Notes under the pieces: model-generated
Database searches by the model: none
Told to the model about the DNA's origin: nothing
The model's input: only the letters and a program-made list of their open reading frames with translations
Part shown: positions 4,543-13,045 of the stretch, piece by piece
How the letters are laid out: each line of letters begins with the position of its first letter
How positions within the stretch are numbered: the first letter of the stretch is position 1
Program-made: the position numbers and the translations under genes
DNA from: Anaerolineales bacterium
Lineage (GTDB): Bacteria > Chloroflexota > Anaerolineae > Anaerolineales > UBA4823
Reading direction: 5' to 3'
DNA length: 64,000 nucleotides
Assembly (NCBI GenBank): GCA_020060465.1
Contig: JAGVAD010000009.1
Coordinates: forward strand, 1 to 64,000

Positions 4543-5031
4543 CTATGCTGCCAGAAGCGCAGTATCGCGGTTCAACTCTTCCAGCAACGCTAACAGCTCA
4601 TCATTTTCGGGAATATCGCTCATTGCCTTGCCATAGTGAACGTAACGCGCGATTCCGCTTCGGTCCACAATCACCTGAGCAGGCATACGTCCCAGTTTGA
4701 ACAGGTTGACCTCTTGTCCATATAACCGCAACACGCTATGATTTGGGTCAGGCAAGCCAATAAAGGGCAAATCGTTTTCCCCAAAATATGCAGCAAACGA
4801 ACTGCGATTCTCCGGCCCTACCACGATTACCTCGGTGTCCAAAGCCGCAATACGATCATAATCTCGGCGCAACTGCGCCATGTGCCGCTGGCAAAATGGT
4901 CACATAAAGCCGCGGTTGAACACCAACAGCACATTTTTCTTGCCGCGATAATCTGAAAGCCGCGTCATGCGCCCGTTGTAATCTTTCAACGCAAAATCCG
5001 GCGCAAGTTGATGAATCTCTATCTGTGGCAC
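4543..5031 (-). CDS. Selenocysteine-containing peroxiredoxin (AhpC/TSA family), TGA = Sec44
   Basis: Read through one in-frame TGA (4900-4902), this is a 162-residue thioredoxin-fold peroxidase. The N-terminal part (PQIEIHQLAPDFALKDYNG, then VLLVFNRGFM) and the C-terminal part (PFCQRHMAQL to the end) join in one frame with no gap. The TGA occupies exactly the place of the peroxidatic Cys of the CPFC motif, giving U-x-x-C with Cys47 as resolving residue. A hairpin at 4866-4879 fits a bacterial SECIS. The start is GTG 5031, with GGAAG 6 bases upstream. Members reduce peroxides at the expense of thiols. The gene has its own consensus promoter with CarH-like repeats. A nonsense mutation is the alternative, but the surrounding sequence is undamaged. 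Confidence 0.82.
4865..4902 (-). promoter_or_regulatory. Candidate bacterial SECIS element
   Basis: Counting from the TGA on the minus strand, the stem GGCGC (4879-4875), loop AGTT and stem GCGCC (4870-4866) form a clean hairpin, with a possible extra U-G pair outside. About 20 bases separate the TGA from the stem and 23 from the loop. A G followed by U sits in the small apical loop. Bacterial SECIS elements are known for a short stem-loop just 3' of the UGA with a conserved G at the start of the loop. I judged the fold by eye. Confidence 0.65.
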
Positions 5032-5159
5032 TTTCCACTTCCATTCATAATCTTTGAAGTAACATTTGCAAAAAGCGCGAACTGAAGGGTGTTATCGGCG
5101 CAAAACACTTTTCACCGTAAACCCACTTTCATATAAGTCAACGAATTCCGCACAAACAG

Positions 5160-5203
5160 ATTATACAATATTGTACATTATTTGTCAATGTATTGTCAAT
5201 TTA
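5160..5203 (-). promoter_or_regulatory. Consensus promoter of the peroxiredoxin with CarH-like 11-bp direct repeats
   Basis: On the minus strand TTGACA (5188-5183), a 17-base spacer and TATAAT (5165-5160) form a perfect sigma-70 promoter about 130 bases before the GTG start. Read on the plus strand, three adjacent 11-base units follow one another: TTGTACATTAT (5171), TTGTCAATGTA (5182) and TTGTCAATTTA (5193). The middle one covers the -35 box and the first lies in the spacer, so a bound protein would block polymerase. The same repeat type occurs at the carH divergent promoter (11950-11971). Confidence 0.75.
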
Positions 5204-5237
5204 TCTTACCCCCGATTTGGCTGAATCTGCTATTCTG

Positions 5238-6539
5238 TTATTCTACCGCCAAAGCTTCATCCACCTCATCGGGGGAGACAACCTCTGGCGCTGTGGGTTG
5301 ATACTCTCCTTTAGGCGCCAGGCGGCGAAAATAAATCCATTCCACCAATGGCGAAGTCATAAAAGTCGTTACCAACGCCATAATAACCAACATGGTAAAT
5401 AGCGTCGGCGTGATTACACCAATATCCAGACCGATGTTTAACAGGACCAGTTCCATCAAACCGCGCGTGTTCATCAAAGCGCCCAACGCTCCCGCTTCCC
5501 GCCAGCTCATCCCCGTCCAGCGCGCCGGCAATGCTGCTCCAACAAATTTGCCTGCTACAGCTACCAGCAGGATCAACCCAGCATCTGCCCATAATGCAAA
5601 CTCATTAAGCAACCCCAAGCTTGTGCGCAGTCCAGTGTATGCGAAGAACAATGGCAGCAAAAACACCACGGCGAAGTCATACATCTTTTCGATTAGCGCA
5701 TGGATAAAATTTCGTTTGCGCGGCATTGCTACTCCAGCCATGAAAGCGCCAAAAAGGGCATGGATACCCAGCATTTCGGTAATCCATGCCGAACCCAGCG
5801 CAAACACCAATATCAAAGCCAACGCGCCTTGGGTAATCTCACCTCGTTGCTCATAATACATTTCGATGCGTATTACCAACTTTCGCAACGGATATAACAT
5901 AACAATAACATAAAGCCCTACCCCGATGATGGTTGCCCAAAATGGCAGGCTGGTTTCCGCAGCCCGTGCTAGCAACAACACGATGGCTAGAATCATCCAC
6001 CCGCTAATATCGTCTAAAGCGGCGCAAGCGATTGCTACCGCGCCGAGTTCGGTACGTAACAGCTTGCGTTCAGATAGAATACGCGCCAGCACGGGAAACG
6101 CAGTGATACTCATCGCCGCGCCGATAAATAAGGCGAATACTAAAAAAGAAACACCCTCCTCAGAAAGATGAGGGTACAAATAGAGCGCCAGCAACACGCC
6201 TAAGCTGAACGGCACAATGATACTCGTTGGGCTGGTAACGAATGCAGTGGAAGTTCGCCCTTTGAGAACCTGCAAATCCAGTTCCAAACCAATCAAGAAC
6301 ATAAACACAATCAAGCCTACCTGGCTGAGGGCATTTAAGAATCCCAGGCTTTGAGAAGGAAACAGCGAATGATACGCCCCAGGTGCTATCCATCCGAGCA
6401 CCGAAGGTCCAAGCAGGATGCCTGCTGCCATTTCCCCCACCACCTGCGGTTGGCGGATTTTACGAAACGCCCAGCCCACCAGCCGAGCTGCTGTCAAAAT
6501 AACAATAATTTGCATGGTGAACAACGGTAAATTCAACAC
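5238..6539 (-). CDS. CPA2-family cation/proton antiporter (KefB/Na+/H+ type)
   Basis: This 433-residue integral membrane protein has about twelve hydrophobic segments. Typical CPA2 features are the PQVVGEMAAGILLGPS helix near 30-45, FLIGLELDLQVLKG near 80, the DDISG pair near 175 (the acidic residues used for ion exchange) and NTRGLMELVLLNIGLD near 355. It lacks the cytoplasmic NAD-binding RCK domain of KefB/KefC, so it stops at the transporter core plus a short acidic tail. It would exchange Na+ or K+ for H+. It lies downstream of the LysE gene on the same strand with 36 bases between them. Confidence 0.88.
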   Translation of the reverse strand: MLNLPLFTMQIIVILTAARLVGWAFRKIRQPQVVGEMAAGILLGPSVLGWIAPGAYHSLFPSQSLGFLNALSQVGLIVFMFLIGLELDLQVLKGRTSTAFVTSPTSIIVPFSLGVLLALYLYPHLSEEGVSFLVFALFIGAAMSITAFPVLARILSERKLLRTELGAVAIACAALDDISGWMILAIVLLLARAAETSLPFWATIIGVGLYVIVMLYPLRKLVIRIEMYYEQRGEITQGALALILVFALGSAWITEMLGIHALFGAFMAGVAMPRKRNFIHALIEKMYDFAVVFLLPLFFAYTGLRTSLGLLNEFALWADAGLILLVAVAGKFVGAALPARWTGMSWREAGALGALMNTRGLMELVLLNIGLDIGVITPTLFTMLVIMALVTTFMTSPLVEWIYFRRLAPKGEYQPTAPEVVSPDEVDEALAVE

Positions 6540-6575: not shown

Positions 6576-7235
6576 TCAATCGAACCAAGAGCGCGCAGCC
6601 AGAAACAACGCCGCTGCTCCAAAGCCCAGGATCACTACGCCGGAGATCAAGTTAACCTTGCGGGCAGTTTGCGCGCCTGGCCAGTGCTTACCCAGCAAGC
6701 CAGCCACAGTGCTCAACAACAGCCACCAGCTTGCCGAACCCAGAAATACTCCCGCCGTCACCATCCATGGCCCAGATGTTTCTCGTCCCACAGCGCCTAA
6801 TCCCGCAAAGATCGCCGCAAAGGATAAGATCGTCATCGGATTGGATATCGTCAACAAAAAAGCGGAACCAAAGTCCATGCCCAACGCCTTTCTGCTGACC
6901 GTTACATCGCCCGCTTCCTTTCCCTTAGGCGAAGCAGTATCTAACCGGCGCGGCGATTCTAACATCGTGCGCACACCGAGATAACACAGAAACAACCCAC
7001 CGATCAACTTCAATTCATCTTGTGCTGCTGTCAGACGAATAGAGATGGCCGTTAAACCCAGAGCAGCTATGCTGCCATACATCGCGTCCGCCGTCGCCGC
7101 CCCCAAACCTGAGATAAACCCCGACAAACGTCCATAAACCAACGCGCGTCGAATGCACAATATGCCTATCGGCCCCACCGGTGCAGCGATAGCCAGCCCG
7201 ATTGCGAAGCCGCGCAAAAACAGGCTGATGCTCAC
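6576..7235 (-). CDS. LysE-family amino acid exporter
   Basis: A 219-residue protein with about six hydrophobic helices. The N-terminus shows the diagnostic LysE/RhtB motif GFAIGLAIAAPVGPIGILC. NPMTILSFAAIFAGLG near 130 is the second conserved element, usually found in the fourth helix. These carriers export basic or other amino acids, or small metabolites, across the inner membrane using the proton gradient. The substrate cannot be read from sequence. It is 20 bases downstream of the acetyltransferase-like gene and probably in the same operon as the antiporter. Confidence 0.88.
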   Translation of the reverse strand: MSISLFLRGFAIGLAIAAPVGPIGILCIRRALVYGRLSGFISGLGAATADAMYGSIAALGLTAISIRLTAAQDELKLIGGLFLCYLGVRTMLESPRRLDTASPKGKEAGDVTVSRKALGMDFGSAFLLTISNPMTILSFAAIFAGLGAVGRETSGPWMVTAGVFLGSASWWLLLSTVAGLLGKHWPGAQTARKVNLISGVVILGFGAAALFLAARSWFD

Positions 7236-7255: not shown

Positions 7256-8383
7256 TCAAATCTTCTTGCGGAACACACGATGATTTTTATATGGAACGCC
7301 GCCCAAGTTAATCAAATCGCTGCGCATTTGCACCGCGGTCTCAGCTACCTGGGTCATCTCAGCATGTTCAAAACCGAAATCGCGCACCGTCTTTTCCATC
7401 TCCACATAGAGTAAAGCATTGCCGCCACGTCCTTGAAATTCTGGCAGAATACCTGCCCCATTCACCGATACCCATTTCGTACGCCGCAATTCCAGCAACA
7501 TGTCAAAGATACCAAAGGGCAGCAGCCGTCCACCATGTCGCTGCAGCGCCGCGGTAATATCTGGAAATGCAAACAAAAAACCCACCACCCGATCACCACT
7601 CAAGATGATCTTGATCAGGCGATGATCCGCCACCGTCAAAATACTATCCACAACAAACTTCACCTCCCGCTCGGTAAGCGGATAGTATTCCCAGTTGTTG
7701 ACAAAGGTTTCATTATACGTTTTCCCAATGCGCGGCGCCCACTGCACCAACTCTTTCTTATTCTTGAAATATTTAACCGATAACGTTCCTCGCTGCTGCA
7801 CCCGCTGAGCAATGCTGCGTACCCTTTCGGGCAAAGCAAAATTACGCGCGTTTGCATAGCATGAGACGAAGTCCACCTCTTTCTCAAAGCCCATCGCTTC
7901 CATCAACTTGGGTAAATAAGGGTGGTTGTAGTTCATCATCGTCATCATCTGACGATGCTCGAAACCTTCTATAAGCATCCCATAACCATCCAGAGCAGCA
8001 AATCCTTTAGGGCCGATCATCTCATCCAGCCCACGCTGCCGCGCCCAATCATATGCTCGTTCAAACAGCGCATTGGCAGTCTCCAGGTTATTTTCGCATT
8101 CGAAGAAGTAAAACTGCGCCCGTTTGAGCTGGTGATATTCGTTATAGCGTCGGTTGTTTGCTACCGCCAATCGCCCAACGTCGCGGCCGTCCCGCACAGC
8201 GATGAAGAAATCGGCCTCCGAATGCTCGTAGAATGGATGTTTATTGCGGTCCAGTGCCGCTTCCACATCTATCAGAATCGGCGGTGACCATTGGGGGGTA
8301 TTTACATAGAATTGAAAGGGCAAATGGGAAAATCGGCGGCGCTGCGCCTTCTGGGCAGTATCCAGCAACTCAATCGTCAGCAT
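7256..8383 (-). CDS. GNAT-fold acyltransferase-like protein, unknown substrate
   Basis: A 375-residue soluble protein. The C-terminal 200 residues look like an acyl-CoA N-acyltransferase fold: RVVGFLFAFPD near 265 and a coenzyme-A-binding-like GILPEFQGRGGNALLYVEME near 310. The N-terminal half (FYVNTPQWSPPILIDVEAALD, then FFIAVRDGRDVGRLAV) resembles the lead-in of large uncharacterised GNAT proteins of about 370-380 residues. I know of no defined reaction for this subgroup. It is first in a three-gene group with LysE and the antiporter. A 113-base gap separates it from the photolyase gene. Confidence 0.65.
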   Translation of the reverse strand: MLTIELLDTAQKAQRRRFSHLPFQFYVNTPQWSPPILIDVEAALDRNKHPFYEHSEADFFIAVRDGRDVGRLAVANNRRYNEYHQLKRAQFYFFECENNLETANALFERAYDWARQRGLDEMIGPKGFAALDGYGMLIEGFEHRQMMTMMNYNHPYLPKLMEAMGFEKEVDFVSCYANARNFALPERVRSIAQRVQQRGTLSVKYFKNKKELVQWAPRIGKTYNETFVNNWEYYPLTEREVKFVVDSILTVADHRLIKIILSGDRVVGFLFAFPDITAALQRHGGRLLPFGIFDMLLELRRTKWVSVNGAGILPEFQGRGGNALLYVEMEKTVRDFGFEHAEMTQVAETAVQMRSDLINLGGVPYKNHRVFRKKI

Positions 8384-8496: not shown

Positions 8497-9894
8497 TCAT
8501 CCGCCCCGAGCAGTCTGGTACACCTGCAAGGCGCGTTCTTTCGCCCAGGCATGGTCCACCAAAGGCGGAGGATAATGGCGGCCAATATAGCAGCCCGCCC
8601 GACGTTGCACTTCCTCAGGCATTGTCCACGGCTGGTGAAGATATTTCAGAGGAACATCTTGCAGCTCCTGCAGCCAGTAGCGGATAAACACACCTTGTGG
8701 ATCGGTCTTCATACTCTGCGAAACTGGATTAAAGACACGAAAATACGGCGCCGCATCGGTACCAACACCAGCTATCCATTGCCAGCCGCCATTGTTAGCT
8801 GCTGGATCGCCATCCATTAGATGCTGCATGAACCATCTTTCACCCCAACGCCAGTCAATCAACAGATCTTTCGTCAAAAAAGAGGCTGTGATCATCCGTC
8901 CCCGATTATGCATCCACCCAGTGTGACTTAATTGCCGCATTAAAGCATCTACAATGGGGTATCCCGTGCGCCCATTTTTCCATGCTTCAAACTGCACCAT
9001 ATCGTTCACCCAGCGTACATCAGCTAGACGAAGGTTCTCGTGCCGCAAGCGAGGGAAATAATATAGGAGATGGATATAAAAATCGCGCCAGATTAGTTCA
9101 TCTAACCAGGCTTCTGCGCTGCGGCGCGCTGTCTCGTCTGGTGCTAAATGGATCGCTTGGCGGGCAGCAGCAACAGCCTGACGCGCCGAAAGCATACCAA
9201 AACGTAAAAAAGGCGAAAGTTGCGAAGTTCCTGCTACATCCTGGCGATCACGCTGTTGATGATAGAGATAAATGGCAAGCTCAGTAAACCGTGTCAAACG
9301 GCGCTGCGCCTCTTTCTCTCCAGCCGGGAAACCATCTGGAGGTAAAGAAAATTGTAATGTCGGCAAAGTTGTTAACCCTGGCGGAGTGTCAATTCGTTGG
9401 GGGGCTTCGAAATAGGGCTTTTCGCTCAGCTCAGGCAAAGCCTTCCACGCCCGGCTAAAAGGGGTGAACATCCTATAGGGCTCGCCATTAGCTTTTACTA
9501 CCGTCCCCGGTGGCCGCGCCGCGGGACTTCCCGCCCAGAAAACAGGCAATTCCCGCCCCACCCGATCATCTCTACGGCGGGCATAAGGCGAATAATCTGG
9601 CTCGGCAAAAATCACATCCGCCCCGCTCTCTGCCAGCAGCCGCCCTAACTCCACCACGGGATCGCCGCGCCTCACCACCAGATAACTACCACGCGCTCTC
9701 AAATCAGCATCCAAGGCGCACAATCCAGCAAACAGAAAAGCAACCCGTTTTTCTCCCACATACGGCGATGCCAACAATTTCTCATCCAGAACAAACACCG
9801 GAATAACTCGCTGGCGCGCCCGCAAAGCGCCAATCAGCGCCTGGTTATCACTCAACCGTAAATCGCGCCGCAGCCACCAGATCGCTGCACTCAC
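8497..9894 (-). CDS. phrB: Deoxyribodipyrimidine photolyase
   Basis: A 465-residue photolyase, which uses blue light and FAD to split cyclobutane pyrimidine dimers in DNA. The N-terminal antenna domain begins AAIWWLRRDLRLSDNQAL. The FAD domain shows the class I series: WLDELIWRDFYIHLL (about 260), SHTGWMHNRGRMITASFLTK (about 317) and GDPAANNGGWQWIAGVGTDA (about 365), including the conserved Trp residues used for electron transfer. Its ATG overlaps the stop of the aldo/keto reductase gene by 4 bases, so the two are translationally coupled. It is probably the last gene of an operon that starts at the CarH-type operator near 11950. Confidence 0.95.
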   Translation of the reverse strand: MSAAIWWLRRDLRLSDNQALIGALRARQRVIPVFVLDEKLLASPYVGEKRVAFLFAGLCALDADLRARGSYLVVRRGDPVVELGRLLAESGADVIFAEPDYSPYARRRDDRVGRELPVFWAGSPAARPPGTVVKANGEPYRMFTPFSRAWKALPELSEKPYFEAPQRIDTPPGLTTLPTLQFSLPPDGFPAGEKEAQRRLTRFTELAIYLYHQQRDRQDVAGTSQLSPFLRFGMLSARQAVAAARQAIHLAPDETARRSAEAWLDELIWRDFYIHLLYYFPRLRHENLRLADVRWVNDMVQFEAWKNGRTGYPIVDALMRQLSHTGWMHNRGRMITASFLTKDLLIDWRWGERWFMQHLMDGDPAANNGGWQWIAGVGTDAAPYFRVFNPVSQSMKTDPQGVFIRYWLQELQDVPLKYLHQPWTMPEEVQRRAGCYIGRHYPPPLVDHAWAKERALQVYQTARGG

Positions 9895-10847
9895 TGCCGC
9901 CCCGACGAAAATTCATTGCTTACTTCATCCAGCGCTGCCACCTCCTCAGCAGTCAAACGCCAACCAAGCGCCCCAGCGTTTTCCTGCGCCTGACGGGCGT
10001 TCTTTGCACCCGGAATGGCCACGGCCCCTTTGCAAATTACCCAGTTGAGCGCCACTTGGGCTGGCGTTTTGCCGCCATGCACCTCACCAATTTCACGCAA
10101 GCGTTGGATCACTGGCTGAGCGCGTGCCAGATAAGAGCGATGATACATGCTTCCTCGCACGCCCGGCGCAGGGCGATCTGGGGTATATTTGCCCGTCAAG
10201 ACGCCTTGCGCCAGAGGACTATACGCAATCAGCGTGACATTCAACTCCCGGCAGGCGTCAAGCAAGCCATTGAACTCCACCTTGCGGTTGAGAAGGCTAT
10301 ACGCCACTTGGTTAGAGGCAAGCGGGATGCCGTGTTTCGCCAGGATGCTGTAAGCGCGACGCATTTGCCTTTCGTCAAAATTCGAAACGCCCACCGCTCG
10401 CGCCATTCCCTCTTGAACAACTTCTGCCAGAGCCTCCGCCCAGTTTTCGATGGAGACCGGCGACCGCGGGAAATGGATCTGATACAAATCCACAGCTTTC
10501 ATCTGTAGACGTCTCAAACTACTCTGCAAAGCGCGATGCAACGACTGGTGGCTTAACCGCCAGGGCAGCGGCGCAAACTTTGTTGCGATGATTACCTGGG
10601 CGGAACTTTCAGCTATGAAACGACCTAATAGCCGTTCGGACTGCCCCATCCCGTACATCTCGGCAGTATCTACCCAATTAATACCCGCCGCCACGCTGGC
10701 CTCAAACGCCTGGCGCACATCGTTTTCGCCATAATTTCGCCCATACGACCAGATGATCCGGTCACCCCATTGCCACGCACCCAGTCCAAGCACAGAGATA
10801 TAAATCTCTGTTTTGCCCAAAGGTCGCAAATCGTTGTTATCTTTCAT
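9891..10847 (-). CDS. Aldo/keto reductase
   Basis: This 318-residue protein is an NADPH-dependent (beta/alpha)8 oxidoreductase of the AKR superfamily. The catalytic tetrad is visible: Asp in WVDTAEMYG with the Tyr of the same motif, Lys in IIATKFAP (near 91) and His in YQIHFPR (near 123). The C-terminal NADP-binding stretch VAIPGAKNARQAQENAGA is typical. The substrate is unknown. It lies 69 bases downstream of the NAD(P)-binding protein gene and overlaps phrB by 4 bases. The gap before it contains a small perfect palindrome CACGTC-CAAC-GACGTG. Its place beside photolyase suggests a role in a light or oxidative response, which is only inference. Confidence 0.9.
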   Translation of the reverse strand: MKDNNDLRPLGKTEIYISVLGLGAWQWGDRIIWSYGRNYGENDVRQAFEASVAAGINWVDTAEMYGMGQSERLLGRFIAESSAQVIIATKFAPLPWRLSHQSLHRALQSSLRRLQMKAVDLYQIHFPRSPVSIENWAEALAEVVQEGMARAVGVSNFDERQMRRAYSILAKHGIPLASNQVAYSLLNRKVEFNGLLDACRELNVTLIAYSPLAQGVLTGKYTPDRPAPGVRGSMYHRSYLARAQPVIQRLREIGEVHGGKTPAQVALNWVICKGAVAIPGAKNARQAQENAGALGWRLTAEEVAALDEVSNEFSSGRQ

Positions 10848-10916: not shown

Positions 10917-11855
10917 TCAGCGTCCTAAAAATTGCGCCAGTGTGTCTTTCACCCGAAACTGGCGCATGTAAGGCGCTACATTTTCTGCTGTAAATGGCCT
11001 CGGCTGGCTGACAAACCGGTCAATGGCGTTCGCTGTGGTCACATTACTCACTGCTAACAACTCCAGTAAACTGCGCGTTACCGGCGGGTTGGGCAGGAGA
11101 ATTTCCATCAAGGCGACGAAGAAGCGCAACAGCGGCATGGGAAAGCGGATCATAATTCGCTTTGCGCCTAAAGCTTGCAGCGTGCGCCGCTCGATCTCCT
11201 CCAGCGTCAAAATCTCCGGGCCGCCAAGTTGAAACGCCTGACCAATGGTATCACGGTCATCCAGCGACTGAATTGCGCAACTGGCTACATCCTCCACCCA
11301 AATGGGTTGAAAACGAGCGGTTTCGTCCCCTACGATAGGAAAAATGAGCGGCGTGAGTGGGATTAAACGGGCGAAAGAGTTGGCAAATTCATCCTCCGGT
11401 CCCCAGATCACCGACGGCTGAAAAGCCGTCCACTCCAAGCCTGACGCTTTAACATAGTCTTCCGCTTTGCCCTTAGAAGCCAGGAAACGATACGGCAAAC
11501 TCGCGTTAGCGCCCAATTGCGATATATACACAAATCGCCGCACGCCAGCCGCCTTAGCTGCTTCCACAATATTCACCGTGCCTTGATAATTAATATCCTC
11601 ATAGCGCCTTCCGCCTTTCTCGATCGCGATGGCTACCGTGTGGATCACCGCCTCGACGCCGCGCATCGCACCTGCCAAACTTTCTGGCCGGGTGACATCT
11701 GCTTCCACCCATTCGATATCTAAACCCGCCAGGCGACCCTCTTTCTGTGCAAACGCCCGGCTGCGCACCATTGCGCGCGTTGGTCGCCCGGCATCTGCCA
11801 GACGATGGACAATATAGCTGCCCAAGTAACCTGAAGCTCCAGTAACCAGAATCAT
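10917..11855 (-). CDS. NAD(P)-binding epimerase/reductase (NDUFA9-like, extended SDR)
   Basis: A 312-residue Rossmann-fold protein. The N-terminal ILVTGASGYLGSYIVHRL carries the GxxGxxG dinucleotide motif, and a TVNIVEAAKAAGVRRFVYISQLG stretch is characteristic of atypical SDRs related to the complex I NDUFA9 subunit. The usual YxxxK catalytic pair is not obvious: the equivalent place reads PYRFLASKGKAEDYV, so it may bind NAD(P) or a quinone rather than act as an epimerase. I chose ATG 11855 because AGGAG lies 6 bases upstream; TTG and GTG codons up to 11861 are less likely. It is the first gene after the repeat-bearing promoter and divergent from carH. Confidence 0.82.
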   Translation of the reverse strand: MILVTGASGYLGSYIVHRLADAGRPTRAMVRSRAFAQKEGRLAGLDIEWVEADVTRPESLAGAMRGVEAVIHTVAIAIEKGGRRYEDINYQGTVNIVEAAKAAGVRRFVYISQLGANASLPYRFLASKGKAEDYVKASGLEWTAFQPSVIWGPEDEFANSFARLIPLTPLIFPIVGDETARFQPIWVEDVASCAIQSLDDRDTIGQAFQLGGPEILTLEEIERRTLQALGAKRIMIRFPMPLLRFFVALMEILLPNPPVTRSLLELLAVSNVTTANAIDRFVSQPRPFTAENVAPYMRQFRVKDTLAQFLGR

Positions 11856-11927
11856 CACCAACTCCTACGGCGATTATCGCCCGCCGTTAGCATTCAAAAT
11901 CGTATCCTACTAATCAACACGGCATCA

Positions 11928-11982
11928 ATTATACTCTCCAAAAAATGACGTGTCAATATATTGTATAAATTCATTGGACACA
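11928..11982 (-). promoter_or_regulatory. Consensus promoter of the SDR-AKR-photolyase operon with CarH-like repeats
   Basis: On the minus strand TTGACA (11956-11951), a 17-base spacer and TATAAT (11933-11928) give a perfect promoter 73 bases before the SDR gene. On the plus strand two adjacent 11-base units, GTGTCAATATA (11950) and TTGTATAAATT (11961), cover and flank the -35. A third unit (11972) is degenerate. The -35 begins at the second base of the repeat, which is the same phase as in the peroxiredoxin promoter. The repeats also lie just upstream of the carH promoter. Confidence 0.72.
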
Positions 11983-12052: not shown

Positions 12053-13045
12053 ATGATTCCACTGCCTGACGTCGCGCTAGGCAGCGACGAGCCATTATAC
12101 AATATCGGTGTGGTTGCCCGCATGACGGGCGTTTCGATGGCTACCCTGCGCGCCTGGGAGCGCCGCTACAACTTTCCCGAATCCGAGCGCACTGCTGGAG
12201 GACACCGCCTGTATTCCGAGCGCGACGTATTACGCCTGCGCTGGGTCAAACAGCGTATTGATGAAGGTATGCAAACCGCCCAGGCGATCAACGCCTTGCG
12301 TCACCAAGAGAAAACCGGCAACCTGGCGCTCATTGAACCATTACATACATTCGCCGAACAAGCCCGCGATGAGACAATCGCCAAAACCACCGCCCACCTG
12401 CCGAAGATCCAAGTCGAGCTGGTTGCTGCCCTCACGCACCGCAATCTACAACGCGCGGATAACCTGCTGGGCGAAGCCCTGGCTCTTTCCAGCCCGGAGG
12501 ATCTGATCCTGAATGTCATCAGTCCCACGCTCTCGCAAATTGGCGAGGCCTGGGAGGATGGCCAGATCAATATCGCCACCGAACATCTGGCTACCAATTA
12601 TCTACGTCAACGCTTGCTGATGTGGATGGTCAGCGGCCCGCCGCCGCGTGAGATCAATCCCATCTTGCTCGCCTGCGCGCCAAACGAATGGCACGAAGGC
12701 AGCTTGCTTATCTTAGGAGCATTGTTACGCCGTCGCCGTTGGCCGGTTGCCTATTTAGGTCAGGCTATGCCTCTGCCCGATCTGGCAAACATCGTGCGCG
12801 AACTGCACCCATCCATGCTCGTTATGGTAGCGATGACCGAAAACTCCGCTGCCGAATTGAGTGATTGGCCGCAATGGCTGCCTGAAGCCGCGCAAAGCGG
12901 CAAACCACCGGCTGGCTACGGCGGGCGCATCTACGCTCAACAGCCCGAATGGCGCTTGCGCATGGCAGGCATCTACCTGGGCGATACCTTCCAAGAAGGT
13001 ATTGTGAACATTGAACGTCTGCTAGAGGGCCGCACACACAGCTAA
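12053..13045 (+). CDS. carH: CarH/LitR-type MerR repressor with B12-binding photosensor domain
   Basis: A 330-residue protein. Residues 16-85 are a MerR winged helix (IGVVARMTGVSMATLRAWERRY, AGGHRLYSERDV). Residues about 115-195 are the four-helix cap that covers cobalamin, and about 203-325 the Rossmann B12 domain. The light-sensing W-x9-EH motif is intact (W167, E177, H178). The E-x-H cobalamin motif is present as EWHEG with H214, the expected lower axial ligand. CarH proteins bind DNA as adenosylcobalamin tetramers in the dark and fall apart in light. Next to it are photolyase and two oxidoreductases with repeat-bearing promoters. It converges on the methyltransferase operon with a 4-base overlap. 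Confidence 0.88.
   Translation: MIPLPDVALGSDEPLYNIGVVARMTGVSMATLRAWERRYNFPESERTAGGHRLYSERDVLRLRWVKQRIDEGMQTAQAINALRHQEKTGNLALIEPLHTFAEQARDETIAKTTAHLPKIQVELVAALTHRNLQRADNLLGEALALSSPEDLILNVISPTLSQIGEAWEDGQINIATEHLATNYLRQRLLMWMVSGPPPREINPILLACAPNEWHEGSLLILGALLRRRRWPVAYLGQAMPLPDLANIVRELHPSMLVMVAMTENSAAELSDWPQWLPEAAQSGKPPAGYGGRIYAQQPEWRLRMAGIYLGDTFQEGIVNIERLLEGRTHS

Follow-up and report, generated by a model that had tools for sequence, protein, structure and literature searches.

CarH recognises tandem copies of the repeat 5'-nnnnTnnACAn-3'; the operator of the Thermus protein has three of them, one of which includes the -35 element (PMC9304148). The Thermus thermophilus protein (TtCarH; operator structure PDB 5C8E) joins a MerR DNA-binding domain to a B12 domain with a Wx9EH motif and a cobalt-ligand His, and its targets are carotenoid genes. 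The CarH operators of Bacillus megaterium and myxobacteria also consist of tandem TnnACA repeats over promoter elements, located beside carH, although with four or five repeats and at carotenogenesis operons (PMC9304148). Comparable in their targets are the Pseudomonas class II LitR regulators PplR and PmlR2, for which the available part of PMC9758184 describes phrB, folE, folM and a short-chain dehydrogenase in the regulons (folE, folM and phrB being light-induced), a TGTACA-N12-TGTACA site, and regulators that are thought not to bind B12 and work with LOV proteins; that part names no selenoprotein among the targets. With respect to the target described below, the closest known proteins are the SelL-related or Prx-like UxxC selenoproteins (NF040769), for which no description of light or B12 regulation was found.

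The sequence analysed here (the window, 64,000 nucleotides) belongs to a genome of 3.18 Mb in 64 contigs (G000), 83% complete, the nearest named relatives of which are metagenome-assembled genomes of Chloroflexota/Anaerolineales. The promoter of a selenocysteine (Sec) peroxiredoxin (Prx) gene on its minus strand reads AAATTGACAATACATTGACAAATAATGTACAATATTGTATAAT, with the arrangement TTGACA-N5-TTGACA-N5-TGTACA, and shows the following elements:

4543-5031, minus strand: Sec (UxxC) peroxiredoxin of the AhpC/TSA family, SelL-related, with an in-frame TGA at 4900-4902
5160-5165, minus strand: -10 element TATAAT, 17 bp from the -35 element
5172-5177, minus strand: direct repeat 3, TGTACA, inside the spacer between -35 and -10
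5183-5188, minus strand: direct repeat 2, TTGACA, the -35 element of the main Prx promoter
5194-5199, minus strand: direct repeat 1, TTGACA, which doubles as the -35 element of an overlapping TTGACA-18-TACAAT promoter

A sequence-only reading had proposed that three adjacent 11-base units cover the -35 element of a perfect TTGACA-17-TATAAT promoter. The units are present exactly as written there (plus-strand positions 5171-5181, 5182-5192 and 5193-5203), the middle one holds the -35 element, and the promoter agrees with the consensus at 12 of 12 positions. The repeats themselves are real, but the motif to be used is TnnACA on the minus strand and not TTGT on the plus strand. The three tandem units match the published CarH repeat exactly and, as in T. 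thermophilus, one of them contains the -35 element; the class II LitR site is built differently. We estimate at about 0.85 the probability that this site is a CarH-type operator at which CarH would repress Prx in the dark and light would relieve the repression; the CarH-type operator proposed by the sequence-only reading is supported by the fit to the definition of PMC9304148 and by the recurrence of the repeat beside carH, at the Prx genes of other genera and, across the genome, at genes of a photoprotection type.

The rarity of the repeat was studied by pattern search. The 3.18-Mb genome contained two perfect TnnACA triples, one at Prx and one ahead of a gene that weakly matches HMG-CoA synthase, versus none for the reversed control pattern, and TnnACA-N5-TTGACA was found at nine sites versus one. 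The 38 genomes of the family gave 44 perfect triples versus 7 reversed controls, the counts of G012 being partly due to minisatellites of 11 bp (TCGACAATCCT) that look like the motif, and this excluded that the motif lies at random sites with equal frequency. Sites were ranked with a pooled-repeat model trained only on the operators that relatives carry beside their own carH, this genome and all Prx sites being left out. The Prx site was first in the 64-kb window with 32.2 bits, whereas 2000 shuffles of its AT-rich intergenic region reached 23.9 bits at best. Apart from it, the only location to score strongly was the site between carH and a divergent short-chain dehydrogenase (SDR) gene, with 21.2 bits. 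A 3-repeat position-specific model, not used for the ranking, scored the carH/SDR site above the Prx site because the -35 element of Prx is repeat 2 and not repeat 3.

The carH/SDR site stands at the head of a minus-strand run of seven genes that ends in Prx, with the order SDR, aldo/keto reductase, photolyase, 375-aa protein, LysE, antiporter and Prx:

12053-13045, plus strand: CarH-like regulator with MerR HTH, two B12-binding domains, Wx9EH and ExH
11951-11967, minus strand: second CarH-type operator, TATACA-N5-TTGACA with a degenerate third repeat ahead, covering the -35 element of SDR
11928-11933, minus strand: -10 element TATAAT of the SDR promoter, 17 bp from the TTGACA at 11951-11956
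10917-11861, minus strand: NAD(P)-binding SDR, first gene of the run, divergent from carH
9891-10847, minus strand: aldo/keto reductase
8497-9894, minus strand: DNA photolyase
7256-8383, minus strand: 375-aa protein without Pfam match, GNAT-like by eye only
6576-7235, minus strand: LysE-type translocator
5238-6539, minus strand: Na+/H+ (CPA2) antiporter, upstream of Prx and in the same direction

The second operator is conserved across the carH orthologues. Reverse-strand repeats over the -35 element of the divergent gene were found in the carH intergenic region of most of the 14 orthologues compared (at least 50% identity), with five perfect triples and two or three near-perfect units in most of the others. 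These repeats end in a TTGACA -35 element, in most cases at a distance of 100-110 bp from the start of carH. Such a footprint connects the repeat with the CarH-like protein independently of Prx.

Prx upstream regions of scorable length numbered 29. Four of them, those of G000, G003, G008 and G013, which represent four genera, carried perfect triples; dinucleotide shuffles of these regions gave none in 11,600. The four operators are identical at 72 of 72 defined positions and agree at only 38% of the others, so that the register of the operator is kept while the rest drifts. The -35 element in the middle repeat and the 17-bp spacer were found at most Prx-associated promoters of relatives. In G017 a perfect site precedes a Staygreen-family gene that is followed by Prx, and in G024, G010, G015, G005 and G011 Prx lies downstream in a same-strand run behind an 11/12 or 12/12 site; from their gene order, these six runs are presumably operons. 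A Staygreen-family gene at L110:9242-10315 (Pfam PF12638) heads a Sec-Prx run behind a perfect triple. Carotenoid-type genes occur in the gene runs of relatives. Several relatives that have carH showed no perfect triple upstream of Prx, and the association per genome between any perfect site and a close carH was only moderate (10/13 vs 9/25, P = 0.04); missing carH genes may reflect incomplete assemblies. G001, the nearest relative with Prx, keeps the order of the run for the part on its contig, with about 28 bp and no perfect triple between the antiporter and Prx. The promoter segment of about 180 bp located there in the window (5031-5240) is missing in G001 (L128), which indicates that the genome of the window has an extra, distal CarH-type promoter for Prx.

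The CarH-like protein announced at 7 kb was located 6.9 kb from the Prx operator, and its gene was the only one of this kind found in the 83%-complete genome. The recognition helix RxWERRY of the MerR domain appears as RAWERRY. The Wx9EH motif, which contacts the Ado group (W167, E177 and H178), is invariant in 23 aligned homologues, and the lower axial cobalt-ligand His is kept. From the B12 motif D/ExHx2G/P...SxT/V...GG, E212, H214 and GG290-291 are retained, while G/P is Ser and SxT is AMT. The best match by far was the NCBIfam CarH model (NF052513), with 164 bits, below its equivalog cut-off of 400 bits. The predicted structure (pLDDT 89) had only Thermus CarH entries (5c8f, 5c8e and 5c8d) as top Foldseek matches in the PDB, with a target-normalised TM of 0.85-0.87 for the B12 domain. 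Identity with TtCarH is about 30%, and the position of its light-state ligand His132, directly behind the W of Wx9EH, is occupied by Glu168 with the motif intact.

This substitution is the main doubt about the signal. His132 is important for the disassembly of the TtCarH tetramer, as H132A mostly remains tetrameric after illumination (PMC10442372), and the residue is replaced in all 14 close orthologues (Glu in 13, Leu in one). Both observations would fit a CarH-like protein that binds the operator but is not a fast light switch, acting instead as a sensor of AdoCbl, redox or oxygen, with Prx answering to B12 status or oxidants. Such a sensor is unlikely in our opinion. An earlier report, mentioned in PMC10442372, found that H132A still disassembles, and the equivalent of His132 is attributed to "many" CarH homologues and is therefore not common to all members of the family (PMC9304148). 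Since the reports differ on the need of His132 for release, the protein may sense light more slowly, or it may respond to B12 or redox status. The photolyase of the run and the carotenoid-type genes in the runs of relatives argue for light.

Peroxiredoxins are often under peroxide regulation, and a perfect palindrome, TACAATATTGTA, lies at 5164-5175 between the -35 and -10 elements of the Prx promoter. A different regulator, such as a peroxide or redox repressor, could bind there; we regard this as improbable, as the palindrome is absent from the Prx promoters of G013 and G008, where the direct repeats are present, and is not conserved at other sites. It is more improbable still that the repeat is a mere by-product of two overlapping strong sigma-70 promoters without regulator, since two TTGACA boxes with -10 elements at 17 and 18 bp (TATAAT and TACAAT) would account neither for the third repeat, TGTACA, in register, nor for the T..ACA register kept in relatives while the units vary (TGTACA, TATACA, TAAACA and TTAACA), nor for the same repeats at carH.

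The identification of Prx as a selenoprotein agrees with the in-frame TGA kept by its close orthologues and the UxxC motif in an AhpC/TSA fold (Pfam AhpC-TSA), both fold and motif being shared with the NF040769 proteins, although it scores 82 versus a cut-off of 120. The genome encodes SelB (selB) and a cobalamin adenosyltransferase. As a possible SECIS only a small hairpin 22-38 nt from the UGA was predicted, which was not significant (z = -0.9), and an Rfam search gave no match. The same genome contains another peroxiredoxin-like gene that carries a TGA in frame (G000:C56:66974-67405).

Besides Prx and SDR/carH, the genes behind TnnACA-N5-TTGACA sites are the HMG-CoA-synthase-like gene, a folE-SDR pair and a divergent DUF4345 locus. 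With phrB, folE, folM and a short-chain dehydrogenase, the class II LitR regulons (PMC9758184) have a target set like that behind the present sites. Several of the nine sites share TATACAA-NNNN-TTGACA and a good -10 element (SDR/carH, folE, the HMG-CoA-synthase-like gene and the DUF4345 locus); others are within genes and look like background. The folE and SDR genes (L017, G000:C52:4778) stand behind TATACAATACCTTGACA with a perfect -10 element and are likely members of the regulon. The perfect triple of L002 (G000:C9:19961) lies between an apparent HMG-CoA reductase gene and the HMG-CoA-synthase-like gene, and the same arrangement also precedes the synthase in G001 (L109). At the DUF4345 locus (L008/L009, G000:C29:173195-173256), two adjacent repeat sites point in opposite directions; behind them come what seems to be a short remnant of the DegV C-terminus, DUF4345 and a gene that may encode DUF2834.

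According to the mechanism that we propose, in the dark an AdoCbl-bound oligomer of the CarH-like protein would sit on the three 11-bp TnnACA repeats, over the -35 element and spacer of Prx, and block RNA polymerase. Light would break the Co-C bond, the protein would let go of the DNA, and the strong sigma-70 promoter thus freed would allow the Sec peroxiredoxin to be made, with a putative role of the peroxidase in photo-oxidative defence. The divergent carH/SDR promoter would obey the same switch, and Prx would be served by its own distal CarH promoter plus any read-through from the run. Light therefore probably induces Prx along with genes for DNA repair and pigments. More tentatively, and with somewhat less than even odds, this Chloroflexota lineage may have a conserved regulon under a B12 photoreceptor, with Sec-Prx as a standing effector and a CarH subtype in which Glu has replaced His132 and the photochemistry of DNA release differs as a result.

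No paper linking CarH to a selenoprotein or a peroxidase was found in the open-licence literature, and we know of no CarH-selenoprotein link in the field. The operator is of the known CarH type; the new parts are the target gene, a selenoprotein peroxiredoxin instead of the carotenoid genes of T. thermophilus, and the change at His132 of the regulator. A natural CarH without His132 provides a case for studying how essential this residue is, and the candidate regulon offered comprises Prx, the SDR-photolyase run, folE, the HMG-CoA-synthase-like gene and the DUF4345 locus. If the proposal is true, CarH light control would reach beyond carotenoids, both to peroxide defence based on selenium and into uncultured Chloroflexota, and B12 supply, light and selenium use would be tied together.
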